Assembly: GCF_001514065.1 (NCBI RefSeq)
Contig: NZ_KQ948422.1
Span: forward strand, 310,001 to 374,000
DNA from: Streptomyces antibioticus
GTDB lineage: Bacteria > Actinomycetota > Actinomycetes > Streptomycetales > Streptomycetaceae
Direction of reading: 5' to 3'
Length of the DNA: 64,000 bases
The notes below the pieces were generated by a model that had not been told where the DNA came from, did not search any database, and saw nothing but the letters and a program-made list of their open reading frames with translations. This document shows, piece by piece, positions 9,503 to 18,328 of this stretch. Each line of letters begins with the position of its first letter. Position 1 is the first letter of the stretch. Position numbers and translations under genes: made by a program.

Positions 9503-10130
9503 CCACCCTTTCCGGGGACTGAGGCAGGACAGCACCTCGGCCATCTCCTCGGCATGCGCGACGTGCAGCGGACAGCAGGCCAGCGGCCTGCCCCTGAGGT
9601 CCCTGGGACACGAAGTACTCACACCGCAACCGCCGACGGGCGCTCGACGAGCCGACCGCGTTCGAAGCGGGCCCCGGCGCCAACGAGACCGACGAGTGGG
9701 GCGCGTTGACCACCCGCCATCGCCGCTCGGCGCGGCATGGGCAAGGCAATGCTGGCGTTCCCGGGCTCCGACCTGGTGGACGAGGTGCTGGCCGCGCATC
9801 GTCATTGAGCAGATCCAGTTGTCCGGCCTCGCTACGAGGAGAAGAGCAGGAAGCCGCGCCGGCAGTCAGCTGAAGTCAGCTGCTTCGCTCGCCGGTCTTC
9901 GACGAAGCGACGGCGGTGGGTGCTCTGTTGGTCGCCGGGCCGTGCGTCCGGTTCCACCCCGCCCGGCCGGCGTCGGCCGTGCACACCTCCGCCCTCGCCC
10001 TGTCCCTCTGTCGCCTGCGGGCAGCACGCAGCGTGGCGCCTCTTCTTGAGACGTCGCCGGGCGGCCGGCACGGCCCGGTGGATTTGCCCTGCTCGGACAG
10101 GTGGACCCTTAAATCACCCCTGCCGCGATC
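9503..10130. other. Intergenic, possible degraded sequence
   Basis: About 630 bp without a gene I can support. Short stretches show coding-like base bias in changing frames, as expected for decayed sequence, but none could be assigned to a family. Confidence 0.4.
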
Positions 10131-10159
10131 TTGACGCCTGCTCCCCGCCACTCTTAATG
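10131..10159 (+). promoter_or_regulatory. Promoter of the Tat-exported amidohydrolase
   Basis: TTGACG (10131-10136) and TTAATG (10154-10159) are separated by 17 bp, a good vegetative promoter arrangement. The -10 element touches the first of two operator-like repeats, so a repressor bound there would block transcription. The transcript would carry a leader of about 130 bp before ATG 10303. Confidence 0.55.
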
Positions 10160-10194
10160 TAGCGATCGCTCCAGTCACTGTAGTGAACACTACA
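10158..10194. promoter_or_regulatory. Tandem operators O1 and O2 (TetR-type, candidate)
   Basis: Two 16-bp near-palindromes lie 21 bp apart: TGTAGCGATCGCTCCA (10158-10173) and TGTAGTGAACACTACA (10179-10194). The second extends to an 18-bp dyad with a 2-bp centre. They share the pattern TGTAG-GA-C-CT-CA with a second tandem pair at 15290-15323, next to the TetR gene of the catabolic cluster. They overlap the -10 and the likely transcription start, as expected for repression. Confidence 0.65.
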
Positions 10195-10302
10195 GGAGGG
10201 CAGGTGTCGGCGCGCATCCTGCTGCCGAGCTCTGTGGCTGCCCGACATGCGCCTGGCCTTCCCGCGGCCCCATTCCCCTTCGCTCCCTCGGTGAGGTGTT
10301 CT

Positions 10303-11466
10303 ATGGCTGTTCCCGGACAAGCTGACCCGCACGGCATGAGACGACGTGGCCTGCTCAAGGCGGCGTTGCCGTTGGGAGTGGCTGCGACAGCGCTCGGCGC
10401 AGTCCCGGCGAGCGCGGTCGACAGTGCGTCCCCGGATACCCCGGCACCCCGCGGCCGGGACCGTATCGACGTGCACTGCCATCTGATCCCTGACTTCTAC
10501 CGCGAGTCCCTGGCGGCGCACGGCGTCACCTCGATCGGGGGCGTACCGGTCCCGGCATGGAGTCCCGCGCTCGCGGTCGACTTCATGAACCGCTACGGCA
10601 TCCAGACCCAGGTGGTGTCGGTCTCCGAGCCCGGAGTCACGTACCTGTCCTCCGCCGAGGAGCGGGTCGCGATGGCGCAGCGTCTGAACACCTACACCAG
10701 TCGGCACCTGGTCCACACGAGGTCCGCGCCGCTGAAGGGACGCTTCGGCGGATTCGCCGTACTGCCTCTCGGCGACGCCGTCGACGAGCGCGACGTCGCC
10801 CGTGCCGTCACTGAAACCAGGCGTGCCGTGAGCGATCTGAAGCTGGACGGCGTGGGCATCTTCAGCAGCTACGGCGGAACGTACCTGGGCGATCCCGTCT
10901 TCGCGCCTTTGATGAAGACGCTCGACGACCTCGGTGCCATGGTGTTCATCCACCCGGTGACCCCGCAGGGCTACCCCGACCTCGGACTGCCGCCGTTCCT
11001 GTACGAGTTCACGTTCGACACCACCCGCGCACTGGTCAACATGCTCTACAAGGGGGTGTACCAGCGCTACCCGCGCATCCGGTGGCTCGCCGCCCACGCG
11101 GGGGGCACCCTGCCCTACATCTCCTACCGCACCAGCCTGCTGACTCTCACGCCGGCGATAGCCCAGCAGGTGGGCGCCACCGGTGCGGACGCCAGCAGCC
11201 CGTACTTTCGCAAGCTCTTCTACGACACCGCCCTGTCGCCCGCGCCCCAGACCATGAAGTCGGTGCGTGAACTGGCCGGTACCCCGCACATCCTCTTCGC
11301 GACCGACTGGCCCTTCAGCAGCGCCCTGTTCCCAGCGGCCGGAGACCCCGCACCGCAGCTGGACGAGACATTCGCGCCTGCTGAGCGGCTGGCTGTCGAA
11401 CGATCCAACGCCCTGGCTCAGTTTCCCGCGCTGGCCGCGAGGATCGGGGCCGCCGATTCGGCCTGA
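10303..11466 (+). CDS. Tat-exported amidohydrolase (ACMSD/amidohydrolase-2 family)
   Basis: This is a 387-residue metal-dependent amidohydrolase-fold enzyme. Metal ligands are visible as HCH (His58 and His60), His217 in FIHPV, His265 in AAHAGG and Asp335 in FATDWPFS. This set is typical of the ACMSD/gamma-resorcylate decarboxylase family, which acts on carboxylated aromatics or ring-cleavage products. The N-terminus has a Tat motif (MRRRGLLKA) and a hydrophobic stretch ending ASA, so export is predicted, which is unusual for this family. ATG 10303 was chosen because GAGGTG precedes it and it places the Tat motif near the N-terminus; ATG 10183 lies inside the operator. Shared operators connect it to the meta-cleavage cluster. 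The substrate is unknown. Confidence 0.85.
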   Translation: MAVPGQADPHGMRRRGLLKAALPLGVAATALGAVPASAVDSASPDTPAPRGRDRIDVHCHLIPDFYRESLAAHGVTSIGGVPVPAWSPALAVDFMNRYGIQTQVVSVSEPGVTYLSSAEERVAMAQRLNTYTSRHLVHTRSAPLKGRFGGFAVLPLGDAVDERDVARAVTETRRAVSDLKLDGVGIFSSYGGTYLGDPVFAPLMKTLDDLGAMVFIHPVTPQGYPDLGLPPFLYEFTFDTTRALVNMLYKGVYQRYPRIRWLAAHAGGTLPYISYRTSLLTLTPAIAQQVGATGADASSPYFRKLFYDTALSPAPQTMKSVRELAGTPHILFATDWPFSSALFPAAGDPAPQLDETFAPAERLAVERSNALAQFPALAARIGAADSA

Positions 11467-11724
11467 GCCCGGCGCAACGAAGGCGTCCCAGTCCTGCCGC
11501 TCTGAGCGGGTCGCCTTGCACGCAGACCCACGACTGCAGATGCCCGAGGTGGCCCTGCGACGTGGGCCGCCGCCGACCAAACTGTGGGACGAGTGCCCGC
11601 CGAAGAGCTGGTGCGGCGGATGCCCGGCCGGGGCGCGAGGGGCGGATGTGTGGTTCGCCCGCCCTGCCGGAAAAACGGCGAGTACGGTCACCCCGCCGTT
11701 GGTGGTGAGGTGACCGTTTGCGGA

Positions 11725-12744
11725 TCAGTCGTCTGCGATTCCCGCGCCGCTGAGCGCGGGGACGGTGTTCTCCGAGCGGGCCAGGGAGCGGGCGCCGACG
11801 CGGAACTGATGGAGCTTGTCCACAATGGTCTGGCCCACGGGGAGATGTCCCCACACGCTGATGCCCTGGTGGGTGGTGGGTTCCCAGGTCGTCTCGTCGA
11901 TGACGATCGGGTTCCAGCCGACTTCCCACTCGAAGCCCGAGGGGGTGCGGGCGTAGTAGGAGAGTTCCAGGTCGTTGGTGTGCTGGCCGACGGACAGGGC
12001 CATGTCGAAGCCGAGTTCGTGCACGCGCTGGTAGCTCTGGGCGACGTCGTCGAGGCTCGCGGCCTGGATGTTGAGGTGCTGCACGCGGGTGCGTATCGGG
12101 TCGATCGGCAGGCCGCGGGTGGTGGCGACGGCGACGGAGTGGTGGCGTTCGTTGACGCGCAGGAAGCGGATCTTGAGTTTGACGCCGCTGATGGTCTCGT
12201 CGATGTAGTCGGTCAGGCGGGCATCGAAGACGGTGTTGAAGTAGCCGCGGATCTGCGCGGGCTTGGTGGAGGTCAGCGCGATGTGTCCCATGCCCGAGTC
12301 CCCGGTGACGAAGCCGGAGGCGAGCATGTGCAGCGGCTCGGCCGACGTCACCGGGCTGGTGTAGATCTCCTGGGTGATGCCCTTGGGTCCGGGGAAGCGC
12401 AGCAGGCGTTCGACGCCCCGCAGCGCTGTCTCCTCGTCCGTACCGACGCTGAGAGGGACGCCGTGGGCGCGGATGCGGGCCTCGATCTGCTCGAACGCGG
12501 TGTGGTCGTCGATGTGCCAGCCGGTGGCGACGACGTCCTCGGCGGGGCCGCGCCGCAGCAGGAAACGGCACTCCTGATCGTCCAGGCGAAAGCGCATCAG
12601 GTCGTGGGAGAGAGCGTCGTGGTGCATGCCGATGGCGTCCGTGCCGAACCGGCGCCAGTCGGTGAAGCGGTTGGTCTCGATGACGATATAGCCGAGATGG
12701 ACGGCTCCGAAGACGGAGGCGCCGGTGGTCGCTTCGCTGCTCAT
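11725..12744 (-). CDS. Extradiol ring-cleavage dioxygenase (two VOC domains)
   Basis: This 339-residue protein is built like BphC-type dioxygenases, with an N-terminal VOC half (residues 10-130) and a catalytic C-terminal half. Fe(II) ligands appear as His154 (GMGHIAL), His223 (RVQHLNIQ) and Glu274 in the signature YARTPSGFEWE. Such enzymes open catechol rings next to the hydroxyl pair using O2, giving a coloured 2-hydroxymuconic semialdehyde-type product. ATG 12744 overlaps the stop of the upstream hydrolase gene (ATGA), which indicates translational coupling and fixes the start. It is the last gene of the three-gene minus-strand operon. The substrate is probably a substituted catechol made by the adjacent hydroxylase. 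Confidence 0.9.
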   Translation of the reverse strand: MSSEATTGASVFGAVHLGYIVIETNRFTDWRRFGTDAIGMHHDALSHDLMRFRLDDQECRFLLRRGPAEDVVATGWHIDDHTAFEQIEARIRAHGVPLSVGTDEETALRGVERLLRFPGPKGITQEIYTSPVTSAEPLHMLASGFVTGDSGMGHIALTSTKPAQIRGYFNTVFDARLTDYIDETISGVKLKIRFLRVNERHHSVAVATTRGLPIDPIRTRVQHLNIQAASLDDVAQSYQRVHELGFDMALSVGQHTNDLELSYYARTPSGFEWEVGWNPIVIDETTWEPTTHQGISVWGHLPVGQTIVDKLHQFRVGARSLARSENTVPALSGAGIADD

Positions 12745-13616
12745 CGACGGCCCGCCAGGAAGTCGGCGCACAGCCGGTTGAACAGCTCGGCGCGCTCGAA
12801 CTGGACCCAGTGCCCGGTGTTGGCGACCAGGTAGAGGTCGCAGTTGGGCAGGCGCTCGGCCAGCATCCGGCCCCCGGACGGCCGGTTGACCTTGTCCTTT
12901 GCTCCCCACAGCACCAGCGTGGGCACGGGCAGCCGGGACAGGCGGGCGTCGCGGGTGAAGTCCATCTTCCACACGGTCCGCAGGGCGCCCGGTCCCGAAG
13001 GCCGTCGCAGCGGCGGTGCTGCGATCACCTCGGGGTCGATGCTGGCCCGGTAGCGCTCGTCGATCACGGAGTCCGGGACGTCGGCGGCGTTGAAGACGAG
13101 ATGGTTGCGGATGAACTTCTCCAGCTTGTGCCGCGAAGGTCCGTCGCCGGTGTAGTAGTTCAGCAGGCTGTTGAGGCCGGCGGTGGGCAGGGTGCGGGTG
13201 GTGCCGATGCCGCCGGGGCCCATGAGGACCATGCGCCCGACCCGGTCGGGGGTGTCCAGGGCCAGGCGCAGGGCGCAGGCGCCGCCGTAGGAGTTGCCGA
13301 CCAAGTGCGCTTTCTCCAGGCCGAGTTCGTCGAGCAGTCCACGGATGCCGTCGGCCAGGTACCCGAAGGGGTCGGCGCCGTCGACGCCCTTGGTGCTGCG
13401 GCCGTAGCCGGGCAGGTCGGGCACGATGACCCGGTACTCCTTGGCCAACTCCGCGATGTTGCGGGCGTAGTTGGAGACGCCGGAGGCTCCTGGGCCGCCG
13501 CCGTGCAGCAGCAGGACGGGCGGGCCGTCTCCGGTCTGAGCGGCGAAGATCTTCCGCCCGCCGATGTCGTACGTCGTCTCCTGCATCGTCGGCAGGCCGG
13601 TCGGGGTGGTCGTCAT
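12741..13616 (-). CDS. Alpha/beta hydrolase, meta-cleavage product hydrolase
   Basis: This 291-residue alpha/beta hydrolase resembles MhpC, BphD and HsaD. It has the oxyanion motif HGGGPGASG (residues 39-47) and nucleophile Ser109 in GNSYGG. Asp in LWGAKDKVN and His in NTGHWVQFE complete the triad near residues 240 and 270. These enzymes hydrolyse the C-C bond of the vinylogous diketone produced by extradiol cleavage, releasing a carboxylic acid and 2-hydroxypenta-2,4-dienoate, which fits the flanking dioxygenase and the hydratase at 16015. It begins 13 bp after the hydroxylase stop and overlaps the dioxygenase start by 4 bp. Confidence 0.93.
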   Translation of the reverse strand: MTTTPTGLPTMQETTYDIGGRKIFAAQTGDGPPVLLLHGGGPGASGVSNYARNIAELAKEYRVIVPDLPGYGRSTKGVDGADPFGYLADGIRGLLDELGLEKAHLVGNSYGGACALRLALDTPDRVGRMVLMGPGGIGTTRTLPTAGLNSLLNYYTGDGPSRHKLEKFIRNHLVFNAADVPDSVIDERYRASIDPEVIAAPPLRRPSGPGALRTVWKMDFTRDARLSRLPVPTLVLWGAKDKVNRPSGGRMLAERLPNCDLYLVANTGHWVQFERAELFNRLCADFLAGRR

Positions 13617-13629
13617 GATGCCGGGGTCC

Positions 13630-15234
13630 TCACTGGGCGGCGGACGCGGTCGGGCGGGAGGTCGTGGACGGGGTGAAACCGCGAGGTGGGGGCGGGAGGG
13701 GGGTGCCTTCGGGAGCCGCGGCGTAGACGTAGGCGTCGGGGCGCAGGGCGAGCGTGGCGGCGCCGTGCCTGGTCATCCAGGGCAGCAGGATGCCGTCGCT
13801 GTCGACGAGGGTGCCCTCGGCGGGCCGGGAGCCGACGGGGGTGACGGTCAGGGAAGGGATGCCCGAGGGCCAGGCGGACTGGGGCGTGGCCGTGCCGGCG
13901 TGCAGGAGGAGCCATCGGCCGCCGAGTGCGTCGTCGAGGCGGACGCGGCTGCCGTCGGGCGCGGTGACCCAGGGCTGGGGGACCTGGTGGCCGGTCGCCC
14001 TGGTGCGCGGGCGGGCCTGCAGGCCGGCGTCGTAGCGGGCGACGGGGATCCAGTTCGAGTCCTGCATCCAGTCGCCGAAGCCCGGTATGCGGTCCAGGGC
14101 GCGCAGGGCGCCGTTGCGGACGCGCGCGAGAGGCAGGCGGCGTTCGGTGATGATCCGGCCGACGAACACCGCCCGCTTGGTGACCTCCTTGACGTGCGGC
14201 TTGCGCTCGGCCTCGTAGCTGTCGAGCACGGTCTCGGGCAGTTCGCCGCGCAGCACGGCGTCGAGTTTCCAGCAGAGGTTGGCCACGTCGCGCACGCCGG
14301 CGGCCATGCCCTGGCCGATCCACGGGGGCATGGCGTGGGCGGCGTCGCCGGCGAGGAAGACCCGGCCCATGCGGAAGCGGGTGGCGAAGCGGACGTGGTG
14401 GCTGTAGACGGTGGCGCGCAGGACCTCGATGCTGTCGCGGGAGATGCCGTACCGGGCGACCAGCCGGTACACGGCCTCCTCGGAGGTCAGCTGCTTCTCG
14501 TCGTCGCCGGGCAGGATCGGGAACTCCCACCGGTGGTGGCCGAGCGGGGTCGGACAGTCCACCGCGGGACGGGCCGGGTCGCAGTGGAAGCGCAGCTTGT
14601 CGTGGTCCGGCCAGGGCTTGAGCATCTTCGTGTCGATGACCACCCAGCGGTCCTCGTACGTCCTGCCCTCGTAGCCGATGTTGAGCTGGGCGCGGGTGAG
14701 GCTGGAACCGCCGTCGGCCGCGATCACATAGGAAACACGCAGACGGTGAACGGAGTCGTCGGCCTTGCCGATCACCGTCAGTTCCACCCCGTCTGCGTTC
14801 TGGCGCACGCGCAGGCACTCGTGGCGCAGCAGCACCCGCACATTGGGGTATCGGTCGACGCCGTCGCGCAGGACCTGCTCCAGAGCGGGCTGGTAGATGA
14901 ACATCTGCGGCGGATGGCCGTGGCCGCGCGAGGCGGGGCGGGCGCTGAGGAACGGGCGACCGTTCGCGTCGACGAAGGCGACGGGCCGTTCGGTCAGCAT
15001 GTCCTGCTTGAGCCGCTCGGCCAGGCCGATCCGCTGCCAGATGCGGACGACTTCCTCGTCGGTGGAGATCGCCCTGGCACGGCTGAAGATCTCCGCATCG
15101 CTCTCCAGGACGACGACGCGCAGGCCCATCGCCCCCAGCAGATTCGCGGCGGTCACGCCCGTGGGCCCGTAACCGATCACCGCCACGTCGTAGTCACTGT
15201 TCTCAGTCTCTGTTCCGGCCCTGATCTCACTCAC
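13630..15234 (-). CDS. FAD-dependent aromatic hydroxylase (MhpA-like)
   Basis: This 534-residue class A flavoprotein monooxygenase of the p-hydroxybenzoate hydroxylase fold has the FAD dinucleotide motif GYGPTG (residues 21-26), the DG motif IAADGGSSLTR near 172 and the GD motif RVFLAGDAAHAMPP near 291-305. The length and C-terminal thioredoxin-like tail match 3-(3-hydroxyphenyl)propionate hydroxylase relatives, which use NAD(P)H and O2 to hydroxylate a phenol to a catechol. GTG 15234 was chosen over an upstream ATG because GAGGTGG precedes it and the upstream codons overlap the operator region. It is the first gene of the catabolic operon and divergent from the TetR gene. Confidence 0.92.
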   Translation of the reverse strand: MSEIRAGTETENSDYDVAVIGYGPTGVTAANLLGAMGLRVVVLESDAEIFSRARAISTDEEVVRIWQRIGLAERLKQDMLTERPVAFVDANGRPFLSARPASRGHGHPPQMFIYQPALEQVLRDGVDRYPNVRVLLRHECLRVRQNADGVELTVIGKADDSVHRLRVSYVIAADGGSSLTRAQLNIGYEGRTYEDRWVVIDTKMLKPWPDHDKLRFHCDPARPAVDCPTPLGHHRWEFPILPGDDEKQLTSEEAVYRLVARYGISRDSIEVLRATVYSHHVRFATRFRMGRVFLAGDAAHAMPPWIGQGMAAGVRDVANLCWKLDAVLRGELPETVLDSYEAERKPHVKEVTKRAVFVGRIITERRLPLARVRNGALRALDRIPGFGDWMQDSNWIPVARYDAGLQARPRTRATGHQVPQPWVTAPDGSRVRLDDALGGRWLLLHAGTATPQSAWPSGIPSLTVTPVGSRPAEGTLVDSDGILLPWMTRHGAATLALRPDAYVYAAAPEGTPLPPPPRGFTPSTTSRPTASAAQ

Positions 15235-15289
15235 ACCCGGCCACCTCACTGTCGTCCCTAGCGCACGGCTCGCACTGCACGGCTCTTGC

Positions 15290-15323
15290 TGTAATGCTTG
15301 CTCCAATTGGAATGACCGCTACG
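15290..15323. promoter_or_regulatory. Tandem operators O3 and O4 (TetR-type, candidate)
   Basis: TGTAATGCTTGCTCCA (15290-15305) and TGGAATGACCGCTACG (15308-15323) each match 12 of 16 positions of O1 at 10158 (O4 in the inverted sense of the near-palindrome). They lie 18 bp apart in the divergent region between the hydroxylase and TetR genes. Their position and similarity to O1/O2 make them likely binding sites for the adjacent TetR protein, which would control both divergent transcripts. Confidence 0.6.
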
Positions 15324-15385
15324 GTAAGCTCGTCGTCGGAGACGGTCAAGAGCCGGCGCGAACGGCACAAGGAGGGGCATCGGCC

Positions 15386-16018
15386 ATGACCAGGCCGCAG
15401 ACGACCCGCAAGAAGCGCGCGAACGGGATGGAGTCGCGGCAGCGCATCCTCGACGCCACCGTGGAGATCGCGGGCGAGCGGGGATACGAGGGCACGTCGA
15501 TCGCGGCGGTCAGCGCCAAGTGCGCACTGCCCGCCAGCTCGATCTACTGGCACTTCAAGGACAAGGACGACCTGATCGCCGCGGTCATCGAACGCAGCTT
15601 CGACACCTGGCTGGCCTCGGTCACGCTTCCGGACCACGAGACGGGCACCCCACTGGAGCGGATCACCGCCATGGCGGGCAACGTGGCGAAGTCACTGACC
15701 GACGCCCCCGACTTCCTCCGCCTGGGACTGATGCTCGCCCTGGAACGACGTCCCGCCGAGCCCCGCGGCCGCACCGTGTTCCTCCAGGTCCGCGCCATCG
15801 CGCACGCGAAGGTCGCCGAGGTGATCGAATCGCTCTTCCCCGCCCTCGACGAGGAGGCCGTCCGCATGCTGGCGACCTACGCCGTCGCGTCCGCCGACGG
15901 ACTGTTCGTCCACCGGGAGATCAACGGCGACGCCGTCGACCTCGTGGCGCTGTTCGAACTGCACGCCCAGCTCGTCTACGACGCGGCGACGCGCATGCCG
16001 GCAAGGAGCAAGGCATGA
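15386..16018 (+). CDS. TetR/AcrR-family regulator of the aromatic cluster
   Basis: This 210-residue protein has an N-terminal TetR helix-turn-helix (residues about 17-65: RQRILDATVEIAGERGYEG, TSIAAVSAKCALPASSIYWHF) and an all-helical ligand-binding C-terminal domain. ATG 15386 follows AAGGAGGGG at good spacing. It is divergent from the hydroxylase operon and overlaps the hydratase gene by 4 bp (ATGA), so it is co-transcribed with catabolic genes. The likely role is a repressor released by a pathway substrate or intermediate. Two tandem operator pairs support control here and at the amidohydrolase 5 kb away. Confidence 0.9.
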   Translation: MTRPQTTRKKRANGMESRQRILDATVEIAGERGYEGTSIAAVSAKCALPASSIYWHFKDKDDLIAAVIERSFDTWLASVTLPDHETGTPLERITAMAGNVAKSLTDAPDFLRLGLMLALERRPAEPRGRTVFLQVRAIAHAKVAEVIESLFPALDEEAVRMLATYAVASADGLFVHREINGDAVDLVALFELHAQLVYDAATRMPARSKA

Positions 16019-16803
16019 CCCCGCCGGACATGCCACGCGCGGAAGCCGCCCGGCTACTGCGCGAGGCCGAACGCCGTGCGACACCGATCGCACCGCTCTC
16101 CACGACACTGCCCGGCCTCGATCTCGCCGACGCCTACGCCGTCCAGCAGGACAACGTCGCCCGCCGCGTGGCCACCGGAGCGACAGTGATCGGCCACAAG
16201 GTGGGCCTGACCTCCGCCCCGATGCAGCAGCTCCTCGGCGTGCACGAGCCGGACTTCGGGCACCTGCTGGACGACATGGTCCACCGCGACGGCGGCACCG
16301 TACGCGCCGCCCGCTACTGCGCCCCGCGCGTCGAACCCGAGATCTGCTTTCGCCTCGCCCGGCCCCTGTACGGCCCCGGGGTGACCACCAACGACGTACT
16401 GGCCGCCACCGAGGCGGTCGCTCCCGCACTGGAGATCGTCGACAGCCGCATCCGCGACTGGCGCATCACCCTGATCGACACCGTCGCGGACAACGCCGGC
16501 TCCGCGGGACTGGTCTGCGGCTCCTGGACACCGATGGAGTACGCGCCCGACCTCGCGGCGGTCACCGTGGACCTGTACGTGAACGGTGACTACGCGGCCT
16601 CCGGCAGCGGCAAGGAGGTCCTGGGCCACCCGGCGGCCGCGGTCGCCTGGCTCGCCAACACCCTTGCCGCCTTCGGTACCGGCCTGGACCCCGGACACGT
16701 GGTCCTGCCGGGCGCCATGACCACCGCTCCCTTCGTCGGCGCCGGACAGAGAGCGCAGGCCCGCTTCGGAGCCCTCGGCTCGGTCTCGGTGTCCTTCGCC
16801 TGA
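16015..16803 (+). CDS. 2-hydroxypenta-2,4-dienoate hydratase (MhpD-like)
   Basis: A 262-residue member of the fumarylacetoacetate hydrolase-like hydratase/decarboxylase superfamily. Recognisable features are GHKVGLTSAPMQQLLGVHEP (residues about 61-80), the metal-binding region VEPEICFRLARPL and a C-terminal LPGAMTTAPFVGAGQ. Family members add water to 2-hydroxypentadienoate, the product of the ring-cleavage hydrolase, giving 4-hydroxy-2-oxovalerate. ATG overlaps the TetR stop, which fixes the start. The next pathway steps (aldolase and acylating aldehyde dehydrogenase) have no genes in this window. Confidence 0.92.
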   Translation: MTPPDMPRAEAARLLREAERRATPIAPLSTTLPGLDLADAYAVQQDNVARRVATGATVIGHKVGLTSAPMQQLLGVHEPDFGHLLDDMVHRDGGTVRAARYCAPRVEPEICFRLARPLYGPGVTTNDVLAATEAVAPALEIVDSRIRDWRITLIDTVADNAGSAGLVCGSWTPMEYAPDLAAVTVDLYVNGDYAASGSGKEVLGHPAAAVAWLANTLAAFGTGLDPGHVVLPGAMTTAPFVGAGQRAQARFGALGSVSVSFA

Positions 16804-16887
16804 CCGAACATCCCGCCCGCCAACCCACCGGAGACATCGAAGGCTTCCCCGCCCTACGACGCCCACCCGCATGAAAGGTCACACCTC

Positions 16888-17937
16888 ATGTCCCCTTCGG
16901 CACAGCGCATCGATGTCCACCAGCACGTGGTGCCCGACTTCTACCGGGCGGAGCTCGCCAAGGCCGGTATCGCAGACGCCGGCGGCCGGGCCCTGCCCGA
17001 CTGGAGCGCCGAGTCGGCACTGGAACTGATGGACCTGCTGGGCACCAGCACCTCGATCCTCTCCGTCTCCACGCCCGGCGCCGGCTTCCTCACCGGCCCC
17101 GGCGAGGCCGCCGACCTGGCCCGACGCCTCAACGACCACTCCGCCGCCCTGACCGCCGGCCACCCCGGCCGCTTCGGCTTCTTCGCCACCCTGCCCATGC
17201 CCGACGCAGACGCCTCCGCCGCCGAGGCTGCGCGGGCCCTGGACGACCTGCGCGCCGACGGCGTCACCCTGCTTGCCAACAACCGGGGCACCTACCTCGG
17301 CGCCGACGGCCAGGACAGGCTGTGGCGCACCCTGAACGACCGCGGTGCGGTGGTCTTCGTCCACCCGGCGGAGCTGCCCGCACCCCCCGTCGACGGCATC
17401 CCCGCCTTCGCCGCCGACTTCCTCCTGGACACCACCCGCGCCGCCTACCTCCTGGTCCGCAACGGCATCCCGCGCCGCTACCCCCACATCCGGTTCATCC
17501 TCAGCCACGCCGGCGGCTTCGTCCCCTACTCCTCGCACCGCATGGCCATCACCATCGCCAACGACACCGCGCGCAGCCCCCTCGACGTACTGGACGACTT
17601 CCGCTCCTTCTACTTCGACACAGCCCTGTCCTCCAGCCCTGCCGCCCTGCCCACCCTGCTCGCCTTCGCCCGCCCCGGACACATCCTCTTCGGCAGCGAC
17701 TGGCCCTTCGCCCCCACTCCCGCCGGCCAGTACTTCGCCAACGGCCTCGACAGCAACGTCGACTCGGGCACGCTGGTGGCCGTCAACCGCACCAACGCCG
17801 AGGCGCTCTTCCCGCGTCTGGCCGCCACTCCCCCCGCGCCGTCCCCAGCCCTTCCGGCAACGGTGCGCCTGCGCCAGGCAGCCCAGCGCACAGCCGCGCG
17901 CCTTGCCTTCAAGCTCGTCCAGCCCGGCACCGACTAA
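16888..17937 (+). CDS. Cytoplasmic amidohydrolase (ACMSD/amidohydrolase-2 family)
   Basis: This 349-residue protein is clearly paralogous to the Tat-exported amidohydrolase at 10303. The metal set is His11 and His13 (VHQH), His158 (FVHPAE), His206 (LSHAGGF) and Asp270 (FGSDWPFAP). There is no signal peptide, so it should act in the cytoplasm. The family decarboxylates or hydrolyses carboxylated aromatic or muconate-type compounds, so it could remove CO2 from a substrate before or after ring cleavage. It sits 84 bp behind the hydratase gene in the TetR operon. Having an exported and a cytoplasmic form in one regulon is notable. Confidence 0.87.
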   Translation: MSPSAQRIDVHQHVVPDFYRAELAKAGIADAGGRALPDWSAESALELMDLLGTSTSILSVSTPGAGFLTGPGEAADLARRLNDHSAALTAGHPGRFGFFATLPMPDADASAAEAARALDDLRADGVTLLANNRGTYLGADGQDRLWRTLNDRGAVVFVHPAELPAPPVDGIPAFAADFLLDTTRAAYLLVRNGIPRRYPHIRFILSHAGGFVPYSSHRMAITIANDTARSPLDVLDDFRSFYFDTALSSSPAALPTLLAFARPGHILFGSDWPFAPTPAGQYFANGLDSNVDSGTLVAVNRTNAEALFPRLAATPPAPSPALPATVRLRQAAQRTAARLAFKLVQPGTD

Positions 17938-17949
17938 GACAGGTTCCTC

Positions 17950-18230
17950 ATGTCCGCAGCCTCGCTCCGCAAGCCCGGCGACCATGCCGTAGCCACACAG
18001 GAAGCCGTCGCGACGGCCGCGACGGCCGCCGCGGCGTCCTCTTCGCCATGTGCCTGTACTTGGTCCTGGCCGTCGCCCCCGTCTCCCGCGTCCAAACTCG
18101 CCCTGCCCGACCTGGCCATCGACCTGCCGGCTGCCAACAGCTCGCTGGCCCAGGGGGCAGCCCTCGTCCTCGCGTACCCCGCGCCACGGCAAGGCGTTGA
18201 GCTGTTCCCCCACCTTCGGCGGGAACATGA
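17950..18230 (+). pseudogene. Remnant of a DHA2-type MFS transporter
   Basis: Just after the second amidohydrolase the sequence encodes, in alternating frames, the N-terminal signature of a 14-TM EmrB/QacA-type transporter. It reads a Met start, GRRGVLFAMCLYLVLAV near 18026-18075, then ALPDLAIDLPAANSSLA near 18097-18147 in another frame. At least two frameshifts and loss of everything after the first membrane segments make it a pseudogene. Its place at the end of the catabolic operon suggests the cluster once had its own transporter. Confidence 0.7.
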
Positions 18231-18328
18231 CGACCGCACTGGACCTGCCCCCTGGACGGGCCTGCCCAGTCACCTCCGAGAGAAATCGCTCGCTGCCCGA
18301 GGCCGACGCTTCTAGCCTGCGGGGGGTG

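Follow-up and report, generated by a model that had tools for sequence, protein, structure and literature searches.

Paired inverted-repeat operators point to a probable local TetR regulon that joins an aromatic meta-cleavage cluster to a separate amidohydrolase gene in Streptomyces antibioticus

Can a single regulator govern a cluster of catabolic genes together with a gene that is read from its own promoter 5 kb away? The question is raised by a 64,000-nucleotide stretch of Streptomyces antibioticus DNA, hereafter the window (G000:C1:310001-374000 of a 10.1-Mb genome), in which the gene for an amidohydrolase, AH1, converges on a row of genes for an aromatic hydroxylase, an alpha/beta hydrolase and a ring-cleavage dioxygenase, and a TetR-family gene stands divergent from the hydroxylase gene. 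An initial annotation of the window had proposed a TetR regulon on the basis of four 16-bp sites, one pair over the AH1 promoter and one pair between the hydroxylase and TetR genes; all four were found in the sequence (operators 1 to 4, Table 1), with start-to-start steps of 21 bp in the first pair and 18 bp in the second. It had also placed an unrelated gap between AH1 and the cluster. The 5 kb, though, is the distance from promoter to promoter, and because AH1 ends 259 bp from the convergent dioxygenase gene (gene ends 11466 and 11725) there is no such gap. We consider it very likely that one TetR protein serves as a local repressor of both the catabolic cluster and AH1, acting through these paired operators.

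The mutual likeness of the sites is a poor guide to their significance. It had been put at about 12 of 16 shared positions, and this is correct for operator 1 against operators 2, 3 and 4 (12/16 identical each, with operator 4 reversed); for the other three pairings the best values are 11, 11 and 10 of 16. Places with a likeness of at least 12/16 to operator 1 number five in the window (the four sites and 6257), and simulated 64-kb sequences (first-order Markov, n = 60) hold a mean of 5.1. Because the simulations match the window count, 12/16 likeness was rejected as a measure of significance. A shared motif does exist; on our reading of the sequence, it is better described as the inverted repeat YGKARYRNNYRYTMCR than by the consensus TGTA-N-GA-CGCT-CA that had been suggested. 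Strict palindromy of operators 3 and 4 is only 6/16 each, their half-sites differing by transitions and at a T/G position, and the half-site pattern YGKARYR is fitted by 8/8 half-sites. The YGKARYRNNYRYTMCR pattern, itself derived from the four sites, matches the window at these four places and nowhere else, where 0.17 matches would be expected. Both the inverted-repeat form and the close pairing of the sites do go beyond chance.

Relatives of the locus were collected with the TetR protein as query and one genome per species; 254 stretches were found and the best 80 kept, giving 79 distinct loci that hold 81 TetR copies and 1.23 Mb in all, and these were scanned with the pattern taken from the window. 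The nearest relatives of the TetR protein come from Streptomyces. Where the hydroxylase gene is adjacent and divergent, which holds for 47 TetR copies, all have sites within 150 bp upstream (two sites in 35, one in 12, none in 0), and the five copies with only the hydrolase gene divergent all have at least two. Elsewhere in these loci the pattern matches once. The pair spacing is 18 bp in 33/35 of the two-site cases, the others being 24 bp (L123) and 50 bp (L125). Sites were also present at AH1 homologues: nine of the 14 carry a pair (spacing 21, 22 or 24 bp), four carry none, and one (L092) has a single site with a near-match second site by eye. Thus at least one site accompanies 47/47 of these TetR copies and 10/14 of the AH1 homologues, which strongly supports the proposed link of AH1 to the cluster through a TetR regulon. 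In the 42 loci with an 18-bp pair, column conservation is 1.50 and 1.48 bits for the two sites and 0.58 and 0.84 bits for the flanks, and to the disadvantage of our reading the site values are inflated, since these loci (window included) were chosen by pattern match. The 2-bp linker, which the pattern leaves unconstrained, is as conserved as the sites (1.70 bits).

A second search, made with the hydroxylase in 199 genomes of the same genus, gave a match in 13/199 and 14 loci, one of them the window, seven on contigs already in the TetR set and five new. Two sites are present in 13/14 of these loci, including each of the five new ones (L135, L141, L142, L145 and L146); the remaining locus, L144, ends at the hydroxylase start. 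The sites occur in Streptomyces and its relatives, Rhodococcus, Gordonia, Amycolatopsis, Kutzneria and Pseudonocardia. Two variations were seen at the side. L135 and L142 lack most of the TetR gene next to the hydroxylase or have an internally shortened form of it, and the operator pair is still recognisable. In L108, L109 and L116, which carry a TetR gene and a pair with no hydroxylase gene within the stretch examined, the pair fuses to a single 34-bp palindrome that is perfect or almost so (TGTAATGCCTGCTCCAATTGGAGCAGGCATTACG in L108).

The sites also hold a fixed place relative to promoters of like build. The TTGACG-17-TTAATG promoter that the initial annotation had seen beneath the first pair is present, and a reading with 18 bp and TAATGT (10155-10160) is equally good. 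The distance from TTGAC to operator 1 is 27 bp in the window; in 10/10 site-bearing AH1 homologues the first site follows TTGAC at 26 bp, and 8/10 of these have TTACCGT or TTACTGT at the -10 position. On the hydroxylase strand, 41/42 of the loci with an 18-bp pair have TTGAC at 26 or 27 bp before the proximal site, and in such loci the -10 element (TTACCGT) runs into the operator. The layouts of the AH1 and hydroxylase promoters are alike and therefore appear to be one promoter-operator module used twice, with a different operator-to-operator distance; the promoter calls are based on sequence reading together with conservation.

A separate link of AH1 to the pathway comes from Rhodococcus plasmids. 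On plasmid pA21d2 of R. fascians, the gene order is amidohydrolase-TetR divergent from hydroxylase-hydrolase-dioxygenase-amidohydrolase. The amidohydrolase at the end of the hydroxylase row is 48% identical to AH1 over 342 residues and 47% identical to AH2, the second amidohydrolase of the window, over 280 residues (288 bits against AH1, 223 bits against AH2), and it starts with a Tat-like signal by eye; the other pA21d2 amidohydrolase is nearer to AH2 (258 vs 177 bits for AH1). AH1 is thus linked to the pathway in two ways, by an AH1-like gene within the hydroxylase row on pA21d2 and by shared operators in the window. The plasmid also carries genes for a hydratase, an acetaldehyde dehydrogenase and a 4-hydroxy-2-oxovalerate aldolase, which by their predicted functions complete a meta-cleavage pathway, and its MFS transporter gene has one site upstream, with TTGACC-17-TTACCGTAGCGATCATTACA (also written TTACCGTAGCGATC). 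Besides the site in front of the MFS transporter gene, L148 has one full match between the TetR and hydroxylase genes, together with a near match by eye; in L149, from a plasmid of Rhodococcus pyridinivorans, the step between the two sites is 19 bp.

The window TetR has the N-terminal helix-turn-helix domain and the size of about 200 residues that are usual in its family, and the stretch LPASSIYWHF in the region of the recognition helix is found in 77/81 of the TetR rows. A further trait of TetR-family regulators, an inverted-repeat operator at their own promoter or at a divergent one, appears to be present as well. The model for ScbR and gamma-butyrolactone receptors, NF041196, was not reached (61.4 bits, cut-off 150). 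In the arrangement that we infer from these features, the TetR protein would act as a local repressor that binds each 16-bp inverted repeat as one dimer, so that two dimers would sit at each promoter region. The proximal dimer would lie over the -10 element and start point and the other just downstream, keeping RNA polymerase off the divergent hydroxylase and TetR promoters and off the AH1 promoter. The repressor would be released by a compound of the aromatic pathway, either a substrate or an early intermediate, and the transcription units carrying the hydroxylase, hydrolase, dioxygenase, TetR, hydratase and AH2 genes would then be induced together with AH1. QacR-type TetR proteins bind one operator region as two dimers, and the present proposal is similar in setting two dimers at one promoter region; it differs in that the dimers, here proposed from sequence, would occupy two separate 16-bp repeats 18-24 bp apart.

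Several observations weigh against this reading. A scan for E. coli-type sigma-70 promoters reported none in 9900-18300, two dimers 18 bp apart would sit differently around the helix from two that are 21 bp apart, and the loci compared are related by descent. Among the 29 TetR copies that adjoin neither a hydroxylase nor a hydrolase gene, 20 have no site, five have one and four have two (one of these four, L077, ends before a hydroxylase gene could be seen), and many copies in such positions show a related but different sequence. AH1 is rare, with 2/199 genomes at E <= 1e-80, and the site-less AH1 homologues have identities of 71% (second copy of L060), 67% (L064), 43% (L120) and 46% (L125); the L120 copy lies 94 bp behind a dioxygenase gene on the same strand and may need no site of its own. 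In L145 the sites are kept with no TetR gene beside the hydroxylase, TetR being encoded elsewhere in that genome. In addition, the S. antibioticus genome encodes a second TetR (G000:C7:288122; L127 9123-9749) that is 73% identical to the window TetR.

On a different point, the element upstream of TetR in L071, L072, L080, L084, L085, L088, L093, L095, L098 and L105 is related to the operator but distinct from it, approximately CTGTAGGGGATGCTCCAATTAGAGTGG by eye. This element of TetR genes away from the hydroxylase is perhaps the operator of a sister regulator.

The explanation that competes best with a local repressor is that the sites are read by the C7 paralogue or by both TetR proteins, the regulon being shared or wired in trans. 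Within residues 34-72, where the DNA-binding helices lie, the two proteins differ at a single position, and on that basis the paralogue might also bind the window sites; no pattern match was found in the 19.5 kb surrounding its own gene, and in L145 the sites are kept with no adjacent TetR gene in a genome that encodes one elsewhere. Against this, the sites accompany the adjacent TetR gene in every hydroxylase-divergent copy, and the C7 gene lies directly behind genes for methylmalonyl-CoA mutase and MeaB, which suggests another role; none of the 79 other TetR loci showed relatives of these two genes. We therefore judge control by the paralogue, alone or shared, to be unlikely, while granting it a real minority share of the probability.

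Much less can be said for two other explanations of the same features. Conservation could reflect overlapping divergent promoters with the -10 element TACCGTAG and no repressor site at all, as the well-conserved end CTACGGTA contains the hydroxylase -10 element; yet the inner half-sites and linker (TCCAATTGGA), which lie away from it, are equally conserved, and the AH1 promoters bear the same two-site element, which makes this account very improbable. It is similarly hard to credit that the TetR protein works as an activator from these sites: activators are known in the TetR family, but the proximal site overlaps the -10 element and the predicted start point at both promoters. That the likeness of the four sites is due to chance can be practically dismissed, for even though random sequence offers about five 12/16 matches to operator 1 per 64 kb, sites stand upstream of 47/47 TetR copies as against the one match elsewhere in the loci.

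Further members of the regulon were looked for across the genome. The initial annotation had called for a genome scan and had noted that a motif common at random would count against it. The YGKARYRNNYRYTMCR pattern has 27 matches in the genome against 78 for its backward control, and there is thus no enrichment of single matches. Close pairs number three, vs 0.001 expected under random placement of 27 sites; two of the three had themselves defined the pattern. The 27 matches comprise the four in the window, two that form a pair on C4 and 21 singles. The C4 pair, TGTAGCGACTGCTACA / CGTAGCAGTCGCTACA (L126 9581-9614), has an 18-bp step and lies 29 bp upstream of a different TetR gene (PF00440 25.0 bits, cut-off 24). 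It was not counted as a member of the regulon, because it is most likely the operator of that adjoining gene, and different TetR proteins may thus use very similar tandem operators. The surroundings of 14/21 singles were inspected with a rough gene prediction by GC position, which placed nine within predicted genes and five in intergenic regions; no convincing further member emerged from these or from the scan with the repeat pattern. The sole acetaldehyde dehydrogenase gene found in the S. antibioticus genome (C1:656271) has no match nearby among the 27.

The genes of the window are listed in Table 1. The start codon of AH1 was chosen by the analyst, the open reading frame in the program's list beginning at 10183. 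The hydroxylase reaches the subfamily model NF004829 (443.1 bits, cut-off 390) and falls short of the equivalog NF004831 (443.4 of 546 bits). The dioxygenase scores 227 bits against TIGR03213, under the cut-off of 366, and its PDB relatives are 2,3-dihydroxybiphenyl dioxygenases. HxH and DWPF motifs are present by eye in both AH1 and AH2; the best PDB match of AH2 is an unnamed metal-dependent hydrolase (2f6k), followed among its relatives by gamma-resorcylate and 2,3-dihydroxybenzoate decarboxylases. This enzyme set suggests a route of phenol hydroxylation, extradiol cleavage, hydrolysis and hydroxypentadienoate conversion, which would include one or two decarboxylase-like amidohydrolases.

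Table 1. Genes, promoters and operators discussed in the text, in window coordinates.
Feature	Coordinates	Strand	Details
Amidohydrolase (AH1) promoter	10131..10160	+	TTGACG 10131-10136, 17 bp, TTAATG 10154-10159
Operator 1	10158..10173	+	TGTAGCGATCGCTCCA; palindromic 14/16; overlaps -10 and predicted start point of amidohydrolase promoter
Operator 2	10179..10194	+	TGTAGTGAACACTACA; palindromic 14/16
AH1, amidohydrolase-2 protein (ACMSD-like)	10303..11466	+	PF04909 4.9e-25; Tat-like N-terminal signal by eye
Extradiol ring-cleavage dioxygenase, VOC/BphC type	11725..12744	-	PF22632, PF00903
Alpha/beta hydrolase, HsaD/BphD-like (meta-cleavage product type)	12741..13616	-	NF045632 231 bits, under cut-off 400
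FAD aromatic hydroxylase, MhpA-like	13630..15234	-	PF01494
Operator 3	15290..15305	+	TGTAATGCTTGCTCCA
Operator 4	15308..15323	+	TGGAATGACCGCTACG; overlaps hydroxylase -10
Hydroxylase gene-row promoter	15321..15349	-	TTGACC 15349-15344, 17 bp, TACCGT 15326-15321
TetR-family regulator, proposed repressor	15386..16018	+	PF00440 3.4e-14, 52.8 bits (cut-off 24); 210 residues
2-Hydroxypentadienoate hydratase, MhpD/DmpE-like	16015..16803	+	PF01557; TIGR03220 243 bits, under cut-off 409
AH2, second amidohydrolase-2 protein	16888..17937	+	PF04909 8.8e-30; no signal seen

Pathways for 3-hydroxyphenylpropionate (mhp) are run by the IclR-type regulator MhpR. They share with the window a hydroxylase, a ring-cleavage dioxygenase, a hydrolase and a hydratase, and an aldolase and a dehydrogenase adjoin the cluster in R. 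fascians. The window differs from them in having a TetR regulator over the upper genes, a VOC-type dioxygenase and two extra amidohydrolases. No IclR-type regulator stands over the hydroxylase, the divergent regulator being TetR; IclR-type genes do occur near hydratase genes in some relatives. The fde/ifc systems for degradation of the flavonoid A-ring in Herbaspirillum and Variovorax, considered as a possible setting for the sites, likewise combine an FAD hydroxylase, a glyoxalase-type dioxygenase and an alpha/beta hydrolase; they can be set apart by description only, in that cupin proteins are named and the word amidohydrolase is absent from the main text (PMC11069340). With respect to regulation, the nearest parallel is EdcR, a TetR repressor of estradiol catabolism in Caenibius tardaugens, which has the repressor role proposed for the window TetR and stands over an aromatic/steroid ring-degradation cluster (PMC8700777). 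In that account a palindromic operator is proposed over the -10 element of several promoters of one cluster, with less conservation at the promoter of EdcR itself, and it consists of one 23-bp palindrome, TnnCnnTACnAnTnGTAnnGnnA, in contrast to the two 16-bp sites per promoter in the window (PMC8700777). Catabolic clusters under a TetR repressor that has operators at more than one promoter are already known, EdcR being an example (PMC8700777), and we regard the window as a well-supported new case of a known type, a putative local TetR repressor of a meta-cleavage pathway. Among open-licence PMC papers searched by title and abstract opening, operator spellings included, none describes this regulon, though a description may exist elsewhere.

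The comparison yields a precise operator that can be transferred within this TetR group, namely YGKARYRNNYRYTMCR repeats of which the first lies 26-27 bp after TTGAC. It also gives AH1, a Tat-signalled amidohydrolase that otherwise looks like an orphan, a place in a meta-cleavage pathway for an aromatic compound. Once the operator of a repressor is defined, ligand screening becomes a ready way to the substrate of that pathway. A more far-reaching picture, which we find rather doubtful, is of an actinobacterial regulon not described before, in which one TetR and one module grade the response by their spacing (18 bp at hydroxylase/TetR, 21-24 bp at AH1), such that a Tat-exported, decarboxylase-like amidohydrolase would prepare a plant-derived aromatic compound outside the cell before intracellular ring cleavage is fully on.

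Two minor observations concern transport. In L047 and L067 a sodium:solute symporter gene (PF00474) lies between AH1 and the dioxygenase gene; it is missing from the window, the alignment of which to L047 breaks at 11514-11652. Behind AH2, window positions 18036-18147 hold a short, frame-broken remnant of the start of an MFS transporter gene, which is whole in relatives (for example L048 10730-12289). The missing symporter gene and the MFS remnant suggest that both putative transporters were lost from the window cluster.

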